This document shows, in pieces, positions 2,063 to 19,419 of a DNA stretch of 41,868 bases. The stretch lies in contig PKSY01000340.1 in the NCBI GenBank assembly GCA_002869405.1, positions 1 through 41,868 of the forward strand, written 5' to 3'. The translations under genes were made by a program, and so were the position numbers. Position 1 is the stretch's first letter, and each line of letters begins with the position of its first letter. The DNA comes from Marinilabiliales bacterium. Its GTDB lineage: Bacteria > Bacteroidota > Bacteroidia > Bacteroidales > BM520. The notes below the pieces were generated by a model that saw nothing but the letters and a program-made list of their open reading frames with translations, made no database searches and was not told the origin of the DNA.

Positions 2063-5000
2063 ATGCGACATGTTGTACGTACATCAAAATGGTTATTTGT
2101 GCTATTTCTACTGGCAGGATTTACCACACTAACTGCACAGGAGTTGATTTCATTTGCAGAAAATGTAACATCAACCGAATTGACAATCCCTGACAGGCTG
2201 GTTGAAGATAGTCAACCCGGAATTATTCAGGTTACTTATGAGTTTGAAAATGCCGGAAAAGCTACCATTGAGGAGCAGAGTATGGATTGGCAAACTTTAA
2301 CCATCGGTGGCTTTGCCCATCTGGAGGAGGTTGGAAAACCAAATCTGCCATCACGTATCGATCACCTGCTTCTTCCCGACCATGTGACACCCTCGGTTAC
2401 TATAGTCGATGCTGAGTTTACCGAAATGGACGGATATATGATATATCCGGCCCTGGAGCCTGCTGTGGATACATATGGCGCCCCAAACCCTGAATTCTAT
2501 GCTGACGAAGCCATTTATCAAAATGATGCATTCTTTCCGGAGGCTGTTGTTTCAATAAAGGATGTGCAGGTTTATAAAGGTGCCCGGCTTGGCCTGGTTC
2601 AAACCATTCCCGTTCAGTTTAACCCTGTTACAGGAAAAATAAGGGTTTACTCACGTATTGTCTACCAGATTGTTTTCCCTCCCTCAGCTGTGTATTCCTG
2701 CGAAATGAATACCGAGGCGGTAAACAGTGAACTTAGAGGCTTTATTGCCAATGCCCGGTCTGTACCAAAAGGTATCGACCCTTCAGATGTTAAATCTGAT
2801 GCAAAGGATTATATTATTATTACCCATAGCGCATTTATTGATGCTGCCAATGATCTTGCTGAGTGGAAGCAACAGCTTGGGTACACGGTAGAGGTCGTTT
2901 CTCAGTCTTCATGGACTTCTGCACAGGTAAAAGATGCTATTCAGACCCGTTATGCCAGCTGGACTCCCAAGCCATCCTACTTTGTGATTTTTGGCGATCA
3001 TAGCGGTACTTATCCTGTTCCCGGTGAACTTTTAAAGAATCCATCAAATGAAACCTATGCCTCAGATCACTATTATGCCTGTATGGATGGAACATATGAC
3101 TATTATGCAGATATGGCTTTCGGTCGTATTTCCGTAACATCAGCAGATCAGGCCAATACTGTGGTTCAAAAAATAATTAATTACGAAAAGAATCCTGTTG
3201 CTGATGCTTCATTCTATCAAAATGGTTTGAACTGTGCCTATTTCCAGGATGATAATGGTGATGGATGGGCCGAGCGACGTTTTACACATACTTCTGAAGA
3301 TATTCGTAACTATACAATGGCGCAGGGCTATACTGTTCAGCGTATTTATGATACAGAATCAAGTACATATCCAACACATTACAATAATGGATATTACAGC
3401 AATGGTGAAGCCTTGCCGGCAGAGCTTCTTAAACCCGGCTTCGCATGGGATGGTGGCGCGTCAGATATTACCAACGCCATAAACTCGGGAAAATTTTATG
3501 TCTTCCACAGAGATCATGGTTATACAGGTGGTGTTGGCTGGGCATCACCATACTTTGTAACCTCCAGTATTAATACACTCACTAATGGTAATAAGCTGCC
3601 GGTGCTCTTTAGTATAAACTGTCATACCGGTGAATTCTATCAGACAGAGTGTTTTGCGGAGAAATTCCTTCGTCATGATGCCGGTGGTGCTGTTGGCGTT
3701 ATTGCTGCCGCACAATACAGTTATTCCGGATATAATGATGGTTTTTCTCTTGGAGCTATTGATGCAATATGGTCTGATCCGGGTCTGATTCCAAACTTTG
3801 GTTCAGGTGGCGTTTCCAATCCAAACCTTTCTCCTCACGGTGATATCGTAACTATGGGTGATGTGCTCAATCAGGCACTCATACGTATGGTTGAAACATG
3901 GGGCTTTAACCAGTATACTTTCGAACTATATCACTACTTCGGTGATCCTGCAATGAAGATATGGACAGCGCAGCCTCAGGCTATTGCTGCAACAGTTCAG
4001 ACAAACTGTGATCCCACTTCAATACAAATAACAGGCAGTACCTGTGCCGACGGGTTGGCAACTGCAATGGCCAACGGTGTTCTTATAGGAGAAACTGTGC
4101 TATCAGGTGGTAATGGAACAATAACTTTCCCAAATCAGGCAGATAATACTGTAATTACTGTGACAATTTCTCAAAGAAACTATGAACCATATATTGCACA
4201 AACAACTGTGGTATCAGGACCTGCTGTTATTCCGGTAGCAGATTTTTCCGGCACACCTGTAACAATCTTTGAAGGTGAGACTGTAAACTTCTCAGATCTG
4301 TCGCAAAATAGTCCGACTTCGTGGAGCTGGACATTTACAGGAGGTACACCGGCTACTTCAACAGCGCAGAATCCTTCAGTAAGTTATGCTGCTGCAGGAA
4401 CCTATACCGTGGCACTTACGGCTACCAATGATGCTGGCTCTGACACTAAAACGGTTACCGATTATATCACCGTAAACGTTGTTCCACCAACGGCTGACTT
4501 TACATCAGATAATACCTATATTCTTTTTGGTGAGTCAGTTCAGTTTACAGACCTCTCTGTTAACAACCCGACAAGCTGGAACTGGACCTTTGCCGGAGGT
4601 ACACCTGCAAACAGTACTTTGGAGAACCCTTCTGTTCTTTATGACACTCCCGGTTTATATGATGTAAGTTTAACTGTTTCCAATGCCGGTGGAACAGATA
4701 TGGAGACCAAATCCGGGTATATTACTGTTAGCGATGGTTCTGTTAACTATTGTGATTCCAGAAGCCAGAGCTATGATACTGAATATATCAGGAATATTGT
4801 CTTTAATACCTTCTCTTTTGCTTCAGGTGGTTCTTACTATTCAGATTTTACCGCTCAGGAGATAAGCCTTGACGCAGGGGAGATATGTAACATTACTCTT
4901 ACTCCTCAGATTAATAAGCGAAACAGAAGAGAGTTCTGGCGCATCTGGATTGATTTGAATGTTGATGGAGACTTTAATGATGCCGGAGAGCTGGTATTTA

Positions 5001-6367
5001 GCGCTGATGGCCAGAAAACAGAAGTTAATGGGACTTTTAGTGTGCCGAATACTGATGTAACAACGACGATGCGAATCAGCATGAAATATGCTTCACCGCC
5101 AACATCATGTGAGATATTCGCCAATGGTGAGGTTGAAGATTATACTGTTATTATTGGTGTTCCTGTACCAGAACCTCCAACTGCTGATTTCTCTGCAAAT
5201 CAGACTGAAATCTATGAAGGTGAGACAGTGAGTTTTATCGATCAGTCTATAAACAACCCGACAGCATGGATCTGGACATTCAACGGAGGAACTCCTGCAA
5301 CATCAACTACACAAAACCCTTCTGTAACATATGCTACAGCAGGAACTTATACAGTAGCACTAACGGTTACAAATGAAGCAGGGTCTGATACTAAAACTGC
5401 TAATAATTTTATAACTGTAAATGTTATCCCGCCTCCTGTTGCGGATTTTACAGCTGATAATACGATTATCTCTATTGGAGAGTCAGTGCAGTTTACTGAT
5501 TTATCGATCGGTAATCCTGATAACTGGAACTGGACTTTCTCCGGGGGTACACCGTCTGAAAGTATACAGCAAAATCCTGCGGTAACTTATAATACCGTTG
5601 GAGTTTATGATGTATCTCTGACTGTAAGCAATGCCCTTGGATCAGATACTAAAACCATGAGTGGTTTTATTACTGTAGAAGATAATCCGGTAACTGACTA
5701 TTGTGCTACTCAGGGGCTTAATTATAATATTGAATGGATAGCCGGTGTTAGTGTAGATGGATTTACAAATACAAGCGGTGCAAGTGGATATTCTGATTTT
5801 ACAAACCAAACGATTAATTTATCGCCCGGTGCAACATCTTCAATCTCTGTTGTACCCGGTTTCTCTGGTCGGGATCGCCGTGAAGCAATAGCTGTTTGGA
5901 TTGATTATAATGCTGATGGTGACTTTGCTGATGCCAATGAAACAGTCTTTACAATTGTTGGTACAAAATCAACAGTTTCCGGGTCGTTTTATGTCCCCGC
6001 GGGTCTTACAGGATTCTCCAGAATGAGAGTTTCTTTAAACTATAAAACTCTGCCGCCGTATTGTGGTAATTTTGAAAATGGTGAAGCAGAAGATTATACC
6101 GTCGCATTTGGTGCAGAGGGTTTAACATTGCCTCAACAATTATCTGTTTATCCAAATCCAACATCAAAAAATATAACAGTTACAGTTCCTCAGAAAGGTG
6201 TTGGAGGAATAATCTCTGTCTTCACATTGACAGGGGAATTAATTTATCAGGAAATAACAGATGGAAATGATATAGTAATAAGCTCCGGGGAATGGGCAGA
6301 TGGAATCTATATCATGCAATACAGCAATATTTTCAATTCGTATATTACACGAATAATAAAACAGTAA
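2063..6367 (+). CDS. Gingipain-like C25 cysteine protease with PKD/GEVED modules and T9SS sorting domain
   Basis: A 1434-residue secreted protease. Order: signal peptide (1-25, ending LTAQE), a propeptide-like region, the C25 catalytic domain (about 250-650), then PKD (about 722-804), PKD (805-890), GEVED (894-1033), PKD (1036-1120), PKD (1124-1207), GEVED (1213-1350) and a C-terminal T9SS type A sorting domain (about 1354-1434, starting near LSVYPNPTS). Catalytic residues by alignment to gingipain R are His485 (HRDHGYTGGVGW) and Cys520 (LFSINCHTGEF), 35 residues apart against 33 in RgpB. It should be exported by Sec, crossed over the outer membrane by the T9SS encoded at 35.7-41.6 kb, and attached to the surface or released. 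Cleavage specificity is not predictable. The PKD-PKD-GEVED block appears to have been duplicated as a unit. A strong terminator follows. Confidence 0.93.
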   Translation: MRHVVRTSKWLFVLFLLAGFTTLTAQELISFAENVTSTELTIPDRLVEDSQPGIIQVTYEFENAGKATIEEQSMDWQTLTIGGFAHLEEVGKPNLPSRIDHLLLPDHVTPSVTIVDAEFTEMDGYMIYPALEPAVDTYGAPNPEFYADEAIYQNDAFFPEAVVSIKDVQVYKGARLGLVQTIPVQFNPVTGKIRVYSRIVYQIVFPPSAVYSCEMNTEAVNSELRGFIANARSVPKGIDPSDVKSDAKDYIIITHSAFIDAANDLAEWKQQLGYTVEVVSQSSWTSAQVKDAIQTRYASWTPKPSYFVIFGDHSGTYPVPGELLKNPSNETYASDHYYACMDGTYDYYADMAFGRISVTSADQANTVVQKIINYEKNPVADASFYQNGLNCAYFQDDNGDGWAERRFTHTSEDIRNYTMAQGYTVQRIYDTESSTYPTHYNNGYYSNGEALPAELLKPGFAWDGGASDITNAINSGKFYVFHRDHGYTGGVGWASPYFVTSSINTLTNGNKLPVLFSINCHTGEFYQTECFAEKFLRHDAGGAVGVIAAAQYSYSGYNDGFSLGAIDAIWSDPGLIPNFGSGGVSNPNLSPHGDIVTMGDVLNQALIRMVETWGFNQYTFELYHYFGDPAMKIWTAQPQAIAATVQTNCDPTSIQITGSTCADGLATAMANGVLIGETVLSGGNGTITFPNQADNTVITVTISQRNYEPYIAQTTVVSGPAVIPVADFSGTPVTIFEGETVNFSDLSQNSPTSWSWTFTGGTPATSTAQNPSVSYAAAGTYTVALTATNDAGSDTKTVTDYITVNVVPPTADFTSDNTYILFGESVQFTDLSVNNPTSWNWTFAGGTPANSTLENPSVLYDTPGLYDVSLTVSNAGGTDMETKSGYITVSDGSVNYCDSRSQSYDTEYIRNIVFNTFSFASGGSYYSDFTAQEISLDAGEICNITLTPQINKRNRREFWRIWIDLNVDGDFNDAGELVFSADGQKTEVNGTFSVPNTDVTTTMRISMKYASPPTSCEIFANGEVEDYTVIIGVPVPEPPTADFSANQTEIYEGETVSFIDQSINNPTAWIWTFNGGTPATSTTQNPSVTYATAGTYTVALTVTNEAGSDTKTANNFITVNVIPPPVADFTADNTIISIGESVQFTDLSIGNPDNWNWTFSGGTPSESIQQNPAVTYNTVGVYDVSLTVSNALGSDTKTMSGFITVEDNPVTDYCATQGLNYNIEWIAGVSVDGFTNTSGASGYSDFTNQTINLSPGATSSISVVPGFSGRDRREAIAVWIDYNADGDFADANETVFTIVGTKSTVSGSFYVPAGLTGFSRMRVSLNYKTLPPYCGNFENGEAEDYTVAFGAEGLTLPQQLSVYPNPTSKNITVTVPQKGVGGIISVFTLTGELIYQEITDGNDIVISSGEWADGIYIMQYSNIFNSYITRIIKQ

Positions 6368-8789: not shown

Positions 8790-10949
8790 TTAAATGTCAA
8801 GGTTGGTAAATTCATCTGTAGCATCGTAATCGTAATCCGGATATTGATAGATTGGCATCACCTTTTCAGTCTCGCCGAGAGTATATCCCCAGACAGTTTC
8901 ATATTCCTTAGTATCCTCACCCCAATCACGAATTTGCCCTATATATTCTGACATCGTTTTTGATTCGATAATATATACCTTTTCCATCTCCTTGATAATT
9001 GGACTGTGGCGACGGCTATGATCATGTTCAAACTCGAGGATTCTTCTTCCATGCCTTGTGATTCCAATAACTCTGAAAGTAGAACTTTTTCCAACACCGG
9101 GCATGTTGAGTACGTTACGGTCGGTAGCCATAAACGGGATTTCTGCTTTTTCCCTGAGTTTGACAATGTTATTAACGAGGTTCTCCGGATGATCCGGCAT
9201 TGCTTTCAGATCATCATAATATTTCTGATCCACGTATCCGATATACTTTTCTTCAACTTTCTCCTGCAGTGAACGTGCGCTGGTGGCAAAGTTCCAGTAG
9301 TTCTCTTTATATCCTTTAACAGTAAACGTGTAATACGGCAGCACGCCTGCGTCATTGAGCACTTTTCTGAGTTTTGCAGTATGTCCTCTTCTGGACGACT
9401 GTGCCAGGAATACCAGCTGGTTGGTTACCATCCATCCTGCTTCAGTGAGCATTTTAATACCTTTCACAGCTTCAGGCGTCAGTTCCATTGCTGTTTCAAA
9501 ATGATTCTGGACTACGAACTGTCGTACTCCAAGCTTTGATGCTCTGGCTTTGAAATCGCCTAATATTTCACACAGTTCGGGAGTTATTCGCTGTGGAAGA
9601 TATACGGGCAACCTTGTTCCCAGACGCACACGAAGCATTTCCGCATACTTTTTTCCTTCCGGGCGGGCATCATTGGCTTCCTTCTTTCTTTTTATCATCT
9701 GATACAGCTCGTCAAGAATCTGTTTTAAAGAATTGTCGGAGCTCATAAGAGCGTCACCACCCGTAATAAGAATATCCCTGAGTTGTGAATCATTTTCAAA
9801 ATATGAAAGCCTGTTGCGGAGCTTATCAAGCCATGTTTCACCAGGTCTCAGCTTGTTGAGATTGAAGTTAAGGTGTCCGCTTTGAAAATCATACATTCTT
9901 TGACAAGAGCTGCATAACCCTCCGCACGCACGACCCATGGTTTCAGGAATGAGGATAGCGACTTCAGGATAGCGGCGGTGAATAGTATGGTGACCAGGAA
10001 GAATCCAACCTGCCGCATTAGGCTTGCCGGGTTCTACCTTATCCTCTTTCTCCCATGCCACAATATGTCCAAACTCTTCAATAAGTTCTTCACTGTAAAA
10101 GACATAGGCCTTAATTGCGAGGTCTGTATTATGTGCAAAATCAGGAGAATCTGCATTTAAAAGATGCAGGTAATAGGGATTTACAAAGAAGGGGATTCCT
10201 TTGTCTTTTGCCCGGTTCAGGCGTTCAATCATTGCAGGTTTCAGTGTGCCGCCCAGGAGTTCATTTAACATTTCCGGCGTGCGGACTGCAAAGCGAAGAT
10301 GAAATACGCTTTCATTCCACCACTTTTCTACTGTGGCTTTTTTTGCTTCAAAATCAGTCTCATCCGTAAAGAAATATTTTTTATCGTTGATCTCACCAGA
10401 GTCAATTTTTTCAATAATGATTCTAATGATACGATTTTTGTTTTCTTTTCGGATTTTAATAATCTCCTCATCGAGTCCTGAAGGATGTCTGTCCATCCAT
10501 TCAAGGATTTGTGATTTTGTTGGGATTTCTCTTTTCAGCCTTCCGTCAAGCTGACGGAAAAGATAAACCATATCCTCGAAGAAGTCATCATAAATATCAT
10601 CAGAATTGCCTTTTGCGGCATCCCAGAGCATTTTGATAGGATCTGAGAGCTCAGTTTCACCTCTTTGGTTCAGGTCCTCGAAGGTTCTGCCGGCATGATC
10701 TATATAATCAAGAATTCTAATGGAAGCATAATCGCGGAATGTGATACTGTAATACCCCTCACAAGTATTAATTTCTTTATTATAGTACTTTACAGCATTA
10801 GGATTCTCACTAAGTATTTTAAGTGCATGATCTTTAAGTATGTCTCGAAATTCTTCGTAATTATTTGATTCTGTGAAATATCTGTTTAATGTCGGATTTT
10901 CATTTCGTAATACCTGCAATAGTTCATGTCCTCTGCTGCTCAATACCAT
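8790..10949 (-). CDS. KamA-family radical SAM aminomutase, glutamate 2,3-aminomutase-like substrate residues
   Basis: A 719-residue cytosolic enzyme, much longer than clostridial lysine 2,3-aminomutase (about 416) because of an N-terminal extension of about 300 residues. The 4Fe-4S/SAM motif is Cys342-x3-Cys346-x2-Cys349 (CGGLCSSC) followed by Arg351, which matches the carboxylate-binding Arg134 of the lysine enzyme. LITGGDALMSSD and LPVYLPQRITPE are family signatures, and Lys621 in MPGVGK matches the PLP lysine. The two aspartates that bind the lysine side-chain amino group (Asp293, Asp330) line up with Lys545 (PYYTFTVK) and Asn615 (NMPG). Lys/Asn at these sites is what I recall for glutamate 2,3-aminomutase, so an acidic substrate and a beta-amino acid product, perhaps beta-glutamate as an osmolyte, are plausible. 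An insertion of about 33 residues separates the two sites compared with the lysine enzyme. Confidence 0.85.
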   Translation of the reverse strand: MVLSSRGHELLQVLRNENPTLNRYFTESNNYEEFRDILKDHALKILSENPNAVKYYNKEINTCEGYYSITFRDYASIRILDYIDHAGRTFEDLNQRGETELSDPIKMLWDAAKGNSDDIYDDFFEDMVYLFRQLDGRLKREIPTKSQILEWMDRHPSGLDEEIIKIRKENKNRIIRIIIEKIDSGEINDKKYFFTDETDFEAKKATVEKWWNESVFHLRFAVRTPEMLNELLGGTLKPAMIERLNRAKDKGIPFFVNPYYLHLLNADSPDFAHNTDLAIKAYVFYSEELIEEFGHIVAWEKEDKVEPGKPNAAGWILPGHHTIHRRYPEVAILIPETMGRACGGLCSSCQRMYDFQSGHLNFNLNKLRPGETWLDKLRNRLSYFENDSQLRDILITGGDALMSSDNSLKQILDELYQMIKRKKEANDARPEGKKYAEMLRVRLGTRLPVYLPQRITPELCEILGDFKARASKLGVRQFVVQNHFETAMELTPEAVKGIKMLTEAGWMVTNQLVFLAQSSRRGHTAKLRKVLNDAGVLPYYTFTVKGYKENYWNFATSARSLQEKVEEKYIGYVDQKYYDDLKAMPDHPENLVNNIVKLREKAEIPFMATDRNVLNMPGVGKSSTFRVIGITRHGRRILEFEHDHSRRHSPIIKEMEKVYIIESKTMSEYIGQIRDWGEDTKEYETVWGYTLGETEKVMPIYQYPDYDYDATDEFTNLDI

Positions 10950-18463: not shown

Positions 18464-19360
18464 TTACAGAGGGTATCTCGTTGACAGATCAGCCTTAAAA
18501 TCTTCAACAGAATGAATAACTTTTACATTGAGCGGGCAATCGAGCCCGTTTTCAGGATCCTGCAATTTGGTAAGATAAATTTGTTGAACCGGGAAGTCGG
18601 TACATAAGGATTTAATGTAGGATTCTGTTTCACAACTGCTGAGAGGTGAGGTAAACGTTGTGATAAGTGCATCAGGGTGTTTTACCTTTGCAATAGACCT
18701 TAAAGCGGATCTTGTAACTGATTGGCCGAGATAAATTGTTTTGTGACCGCTTTTGCGAATAAGGTATGCGAAGAACAGCATGCACAACTCATTGTAATGC
18801 CCTTCAGGCAAAAAGATAAAAAACCGTTTACCATTTTCAGCTGGTGGAATTATTAAACCATCAAGGGCAACAATAACTTTTTGTCGAAGTATTGAGTCTG
18901 CAAAATGTTGCTGAGCTTCTGAAATAACGCCGGTAAGCCAGTGAAGACGTACTTTTTGATAAAAAGGAAAAAAGACTTTATGAAATGCATTTTCAAAACC
19001 GTGTGCAATAACTGCGTTGGTTATTGCTTTATTGAAAAGCACCGAATCCAGTTCAAGTGTAGCATGAAGCATGGTTTCAATGATGCTCTCCGCTTCCTGG
19101 CTTTGGGATGCAAGTTTTAAGACTTCCGAATTTATCTCTTCATTGGAAAGTTCGGCGATATGAGATATTTTCCAGCCTGAATTATTAAGGATGGAGATAT
19201 TCAGAAGTTTCTTAAGGTCGTTATCACTATAATACCTGATGTTGGTATCTGTTCGGTGAGGTTCAATTATCCCGTAGCGCTTCTCCCATATTCTAATGGT
19301 GTGCGCTTTAATCCCGGTCATTCTTTCCAGGTCACTTATGGAATAATTTTGCTTGCTCAT
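18464..19360 (-). CDS. MerR-family regulator with B12-binding-like C-terminal domain
   Basis: A 298-residue regulator started at the ATG 19358-19360, which has GGAAG a short distance upstream; a TTG five codons earlier is less likely. The MerR winged helix is at about 5-72 (SISDLERMTGIKAHTIRIWE, RYY wing). A helical segment (75-165) and a Rossmann-like domain (170-298) follow the layout of CarH/LitR photoreceptors. The cobalamin motif DxHxxG is degraded to Glu186-x-His188-x-x-Glu191 (EGHYNE); Trp141 and His152 of the helix bundle are kept while the glutamate before that His is Gln151. Light sensing through B12 is therefore uncertain. It sits between alaS and the ECF sigma gene on the same strand. 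Confidence 0.85.
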   Translation of the reverse strand: MSKQNYSISDLERMTGIKAHTIRIWEKRYGIIEPHRTDTNIRYYSDNDLKKLLNISILNNSGWKISHIAELSNEEINSEVLKLASQSQEAESIIETMLHATLELDSVLFNKAITNAVIAHGFENAFHKVFFPFYQKVRLHWLTGVISEAQQHFADSILRQKVIVALDGLIIPPAENGKRFFIFLPEGHYNELCMLFFAYLIRKSGHKTIYLGQSVTRSALRSIAKVKHPDALITTFTSPLSSCETESYIKSLCTDFPVQQIYLTKLQDPENGLDCPLNVKVIHSVEDFKADLSTRYPL

Positions 19361-19419
19361 TCTTTTTTCTTCCAAATCCTAAACGGACAGCGGGGAAAAA
19401 AGTTTTGATTCGAATAAAC

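Follow-up and report, generated by a model that had tools for sequence, protein, structure and literature searches.

Lysine 2,3-aminomutase (LAM; TIGR03820; PDB 2a5h) and glutamate 2,3-aminomutase (GAM; gene eam; TIGR04368) are the closest described systems to the gene considered here. GAM has Lys and Asn in place of the lysine-binding aspartates of LAM; these two residues persist across the whole GAM family and are linked to glutamate binding (PMC3965090). The NCBI models bear the same signature: when single replacements in one LAM sequence were scored, D293K lost 3.4 bits on the LAM model and gained 2.8 bits on the GAM model, while D330N lost 2.6 and gained 3.0 bits, respectively. An initial annotation of the present locus had assigned Lys and Asn at these sites to GAM, correctly as both the publication and the scoring indicate. 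The putative product of such chemistry, beta-glutamate, reaches 730 mM in Nitrosopumilus maritimus (PMC8269262).

The window, meaning the whole stretch of 41,868 nucleotides analysed (contig PKSY01000340.1 of a Marinilabiliales bacterium), encodes a 719-aa protein that is a real and conserved member of a KamA-type subfamily, hereafter subfamily A, with a GAM-type pocket and an N-terminal domain of its own. It is the one KamA-type gene seen in its genome, where the next matches have E >0.001. Its features are as follows.

8790..10949, minus strand: KamA-type radical SAM/PLP protein of subfamily A, 719 aa (ORF, NCBIfam, 81 aligned relatives, AlphaFold model against 2a5h)
10335..10949, minus strand: N-terminal helical domain, residues 1-205, of which 1-167 lie beyond LAM (AlphaFold models, 2a5h match)
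9903..9926, minus strand: CGGLCSSC [4Fe-4S] motif, residues 342-349 (cysteines invariant in 81/81)
9897..9899, minus strand: Arg351, equivalent of LAM Arg134, for the substrate carboxylate (family alignment, LAM numbering, joint alignment)
9315..9317, minus strand: Lys545, at the LAM Asp293 site (HHalign, family and joint alignments)
9108..9314, minus strand: residues 546-614 between the pocket sites, exceeding the LAM segment by about 33 (spacing of 70 against 37 residues)
9105..9107, minus strand: Asn615, at the LAM Asp330 site (alignment via subfamily B, joint alignment)
9087..9089, minus strand: Lys621, the PLP lysine, LAM Lys337 (alignment via subfamily B, joint alignment)

Fold, pocket and N-terminal domain

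Alignment and modelling establish the fold, the cofactor residues and the pocket residues of the protein. All 81 subfamily A members aligned have the three cysteines, Arg351, Lys545, Asn615 and Lys621 without exception, so that the pocket residues cannot be attributed to chance; at the level of fold, the constancy of the CxxxCxxC motif, carboxylate Arg and PLP lysine in these members, together with the match to 2a5h, places the protein among the KamA radical SAM/PLP proteins. With LAM numbering (Arg134, Asp293, Asp330, Lys337) fixed by a Phmmer comparison of one LAM (L131) with 2a5h, HHalign of subfamily A against LAMs sets Lys545 opposite Asp293. The other two positions were reached through a second long subfamily, B, whose match to A runs through the PLP lysine and whose match to LAM runs through Asp330; because A aligns with B, and B with LAM, Asn615 falls at Asp330 and Lys621 at Lys337. 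The spacing between Asn615 and Lys621 is one residue shorter than its LAM counterpart, and the register at Asn615 therefore rests on alignment. When 102 KamA-type proteins were aligned jointly, both long subfamilies showed Lys/Asn and LAM-type proteins Asp/Asp, with Gln/Asp, His/Asn, Glu/Ala or Arg/Ser at the two sites in smaller groups. HHalign, the bridge through subfamily B and the joint alignment thus agree with the initial annotation in its placement of Lys545 and Asn615, and the invariance across the family upholds its statement that the cluster motif, Arg351 and Lys621 are kept; the insertion that it noted between the two sites is present, and can now be sized at some 33 residues.

On NCBIfam profiles the protein misses the curated cut-off even of TIGR00238, the KamA family radical SAM protein model (150.1 bits, E 7e-44, against 199.2), as well as those of GAM (108.8 against 650) and LAM (101.9 against 525.4), and the cut-offs of arginine 2,3-aminomutase (TIGR04468; 79.0 against 600) and EpmB (TIGR03821; 74.6 against 369.3). 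With LAM it has in common the overall fold, the cluster and the equivalents of Arg134 and Lys337, but differs in the exchange of both aspartates and in its N-terminal extension. With GAM it has in common the Lys and Asn sites, the radical SAM cysteines, the carboxylate Arg and the PLP lysine, yet falls far short of the cut-off of this, its best substrate-specific model, to whose 404 positions it adds a large N-terminal domain and the insertion. The protein is outside the curated GAM family, though by its pocket it is GAM-like in its predicted working.

GAM is the top substrate-specific model in every subfamily A member scanned, with GAM and LAM scores of 109/102 (the 719-aa protein), 113/99, 101/86, 98/87 and 100/90, a margin of 7-15 bits, and also in subfamily B, where its lead is 32-57 bits. 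Removing the N-terminal 239 residues from a subfamily B protein cost 17 bits on the GAM model and left the LAM score unchanged, so that B and GAM have an N-terminal segment in common; the corresponding removal in subfamily A cost only 2 bits on the GAM model. As that model gives a LAM 465 bits but subfamily B proteins 237-243, GAM probably lies nearer to LAM than to either long subfamily. If so, the Lys and Asn common to GAM and the long subfamilies may be either convergent or ancestral.

By sequence search, LAM 2a5h is the sole solved relative. An AlphaFold model of the protein (51 sequences, pLDDT 85, pTM 0.88, with the cluster loop 339-368 poorly modelled) was set against LAM as the initial annotation had proposed; model residues 168-650 match 2a5h chain residues 3-390 with Z 22.3 and an rmsd of 2.8 over 329 residues, against Z 9.2 for the second-best structural match. 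KamA profiles align from about residue 205, and the extension is therefore some 165 (by structure) to 205 (by profile) residues long, rather than the 300 or so first claimed. Modelled alone, residues 1-205 form a helical domain (pLDDT 86) for which structural searches returned no convincing solved relative (best Foldseek E 1.6, best VIA-align Z 4.1); such weak matches are no demonstration of a new fold.

Distribution, tree and gene neighbourhood

In a genome scan, 501 stretches were found to encode relatives, and the best 80 of these were retained. Judged from record titles, some of which may reflect mis-binned sequences, these 80 derive mainly from Bacteroidales, and also from Ignavibacteria, Kapaibacterium, Aminicenantes, Acidobacteria, Nitrospinota, Myxococcota and others. 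Many of the titles suggest a marine or saline source (Marinilabilia, Mariniphaga, Carboxylicivirga, hydrothermal vent and sediment bins), which is an impression of a leaning, shared by some titles and not others, rather than a count. Taken together, the long Lys/Asn subfamilies occur in marine and soda-lake Bacteroidota, in gut Bacteroides and in several other phyla. Within the order to which the window belongs, 58 of 247 genomes carry subfamily A, once genomes with subfamily B only are removed. In the window's own genus the gene is present in G000 and G199 (3.5 Mb) and absent from G198 (2.3 Mb, 97% complete), so its gain or loss takes place at short range. Subfamily A proteins at 45-46% identity are present in gut Parabacteroides, Phocaeicola and Bacteroides, the annotated ones being named 'KamA family protein'; among these, WP_009275016.1 of Parabacteroides distasonis (704 aa) has 46% full-length identity and the same Lys/Asn and PLP motifs, but gene surroundings unlike those in the window. 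Our search found no member of subfamily A with measured activity.

The two long subfamilies with Lys/Asn differ in length, A being of about 720 aa and B of about 650 aa (range about 600-690). Subfamily B (L005, L048, L139, L148) has the same Lys/Asn pocket, the CxxxCxxCQR motif and a homologous N-terminal part, but only some 35% core identity to A, and far higher scores on the KamA (319-347 bits) and GAM (237-243 bits) models. In a tree built from the core, the 26 Lys/Asn rows cluster together (100/98) and divide into A (100/100) and B (98/95), although long branches part A, B and one outlier row, so the joins among them carry some risk. GAM is represented in our comparisons by the NCBI model, and by no row of this tree, since no authentic GAM sequence was obtained from Bacteroidota, the phylum of G257, viral contigs or plasmids. 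Within these bounds the tree sustains the earlier suggestion of a separate subfamily, and the published signature, the lead of the GAM model and the Lys/Asn group on the tree together support the reading of a KamA-related aminomutase with substrate residues of the GAM rather than the LAM type.

No partner gene is conserved beside subfamily A across the 80 loci (best of the 501 stretches), and pathway assignment by gene neighbourhood was accordingly abandoned. Such stand-alone genes contrast with the paired ablA and ablB (PMC1224877). Neighbours recur sporadically and, with names judged from their sequences, comprise flippase-like (14/80), hydrolase-like (12/80) and P5C dehydrogenase-like (9/80) genes, the last being divergent from the subfamily A gene in its nine loci. 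A P5C dehydrogenase would form glutamate. In the window, rpoD and pnp lie upstream on the same strand, and a scan of the flanking genes there gave no pathway hint. Elsewhere in the window, positions 2063-6367 (plus strand) encode a C25 peptidase of the gingipain type, 1434 aa long, which carries PKD and GEVED domains as well as a tail for type IX secretion. The product of positions 18464-19375 (minus strand) is a regulator of the MerR type that, among NCBIfam models, matches CarH best (90 bits against a cut-off of 400).

Proposed reaction, alternatives and a possible link to salt

From the residues described above we infer the substrate, product and role of the protein. A [4Fe-4S] cluster on Cys342, Cys346 and Cys349 would cleave S-adenosylmethionine to yield a 5'-deoxyadenosyl radical, with the amino-acid substrate held as an imine of PLP, itself resting on Lys621, and Arg351 holding the substrate alpha-carboxylate. 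The radical would take a hydrogen from C3, the PLP-bound nitrogen would shift from C2 to C3, and the hydrogen would be given back. As Lys545 and Asn615 stand where LAM has its two aspartates and would bind a carboxylate on the substrate side chain, the likeliest reaction turns L-glutamate into beta-glutamate (3-aminoglutarate). A PLP-dependent radical SAM 2,3-aminomutase acting on glutamate is the best-supported single reading of the sequence, and in our judgement evenly poised between right and wrong.

Against glutamate stand the distance of 109 bits from a cut-off of 650 and a lead over LAM, in subfamily A, of just 7-15 bits. Both the N-terminal domain and the insertion next to the pocket might be suited to a different substrate, and a same-mechanism aminomutase acting on a different polar or acidic amino acid, such as glutamine, 2-aminoadipate or a glutamyl conjugate, in a pocket reshaped by these additions, would account for the low GAM score, the extra domain, the 33 additional residues adjoining the pocket and the great length of the branch that leads to subfamily A. 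We consider this somewhat unlikely, as Lys and Asn never vary among the members and together make up the published signature for glutamate, and no neighbouring gene hints at a different substrate. The large N-terminal domain without known relative might instead be the recognition part of a radical SAM enzyme whose chemistry lies beyond that of aminomutases, for example a protein or peptide modifier, and that the gene stands alone would suit such a role; yet neither the PLP lysine, nor the carboxylate Arg, nor either pocket position varies, a constancy that aminomutase chemistry on a free amino acid explains directly, making a modifier improbable. A divergent LAM supplying beta-lysine, for which the nearest solved structure might speak, is very improbable indeed, given that both lysine-binding aspartates are replaced, one of them by a positively charged Lys, and that a distinct LAM-type gene, high-scoring and with Asp/Asp, accompanies the subfamily A gene in 7 of the 16 carrier genomes searched.

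If glutamate is the substrate, beta-glutamate would probably be used as is, since no partner gene is conserved alongside, and most likely directly as a compatible solute; for the product of this gene such an osmolyte role is conceivable, and we advance it tentatively. Na+ riboswitches control eam, and also precede ablA, in other bacteria (PMC9337991), whereas an Rfam search found no salt riboswitch in the window or in eight related loci. Among the 247 genomes of the same order, and with descent accounted for to genus level only, genes for betaine uptake turn up more often in carriers than in non-carriers, both for BCCT (7/58 against 5/189, p 0.008; p 0.031 by genus) and for OpuAC (9/58 against 6/189, p 0.002; p 0.012 by genus), while the window's own genome has neither at the threshold used. 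The osmolyte reading is further opposed by occurrence of the gene in gut Bacteroides and Parabacteroides, which are not high-salt organisms. Proteome acidity was rejected as a salt marker, as a difference between carriers and non-carriers in 15+15 genomes (p 0.046) lost clear support on enlargement to 41+44 (p 0.16).

More speculatively, the protein may represent a second, structurally distinct aminomutase forming beta-glutamate, with its own N-terminal domain, which occurs widely among bacteria of anoxic marine and saline sediments and serves there as a main bacterial source of beta-glutamate. A testable bacterial beta-glutamate gene, with some 500 related stretches in a genome scan, would allow makers to be tracked in genomes, and the many proteins named only 'KamA family protein' would gain a substrate.

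Other KamA-type groups

A further KamA-type group of about 512-519 aa (L011:1471-3006, plus strand; L024:961-2517, minus strand), with a CxxxCxxCQR motif and a long C-terminal part, has His where LAM has Asp293 and Asn where LAM has Asp330, a pair that is the signature of neither LAM nor GAM. Small groups in L147, L160 (G261) and L158 (G268) carry Glu/Ala and Arg/Ser at the substrate sites, and as these residues differ, the proteins likely act on other substrates. On plasmid pTHIMO01 of Thioflavicoccus mobilis (L349, 2360-6017), a KamA-type gene lies opposite genes annotated as an ATP-grasp ligase, ornithine cyclodeaminase/mu-crystallin and SbnA of diaminopropionate synthesis, a locus which is perhaps responsible for a small natural product containing a beta-amino acid.
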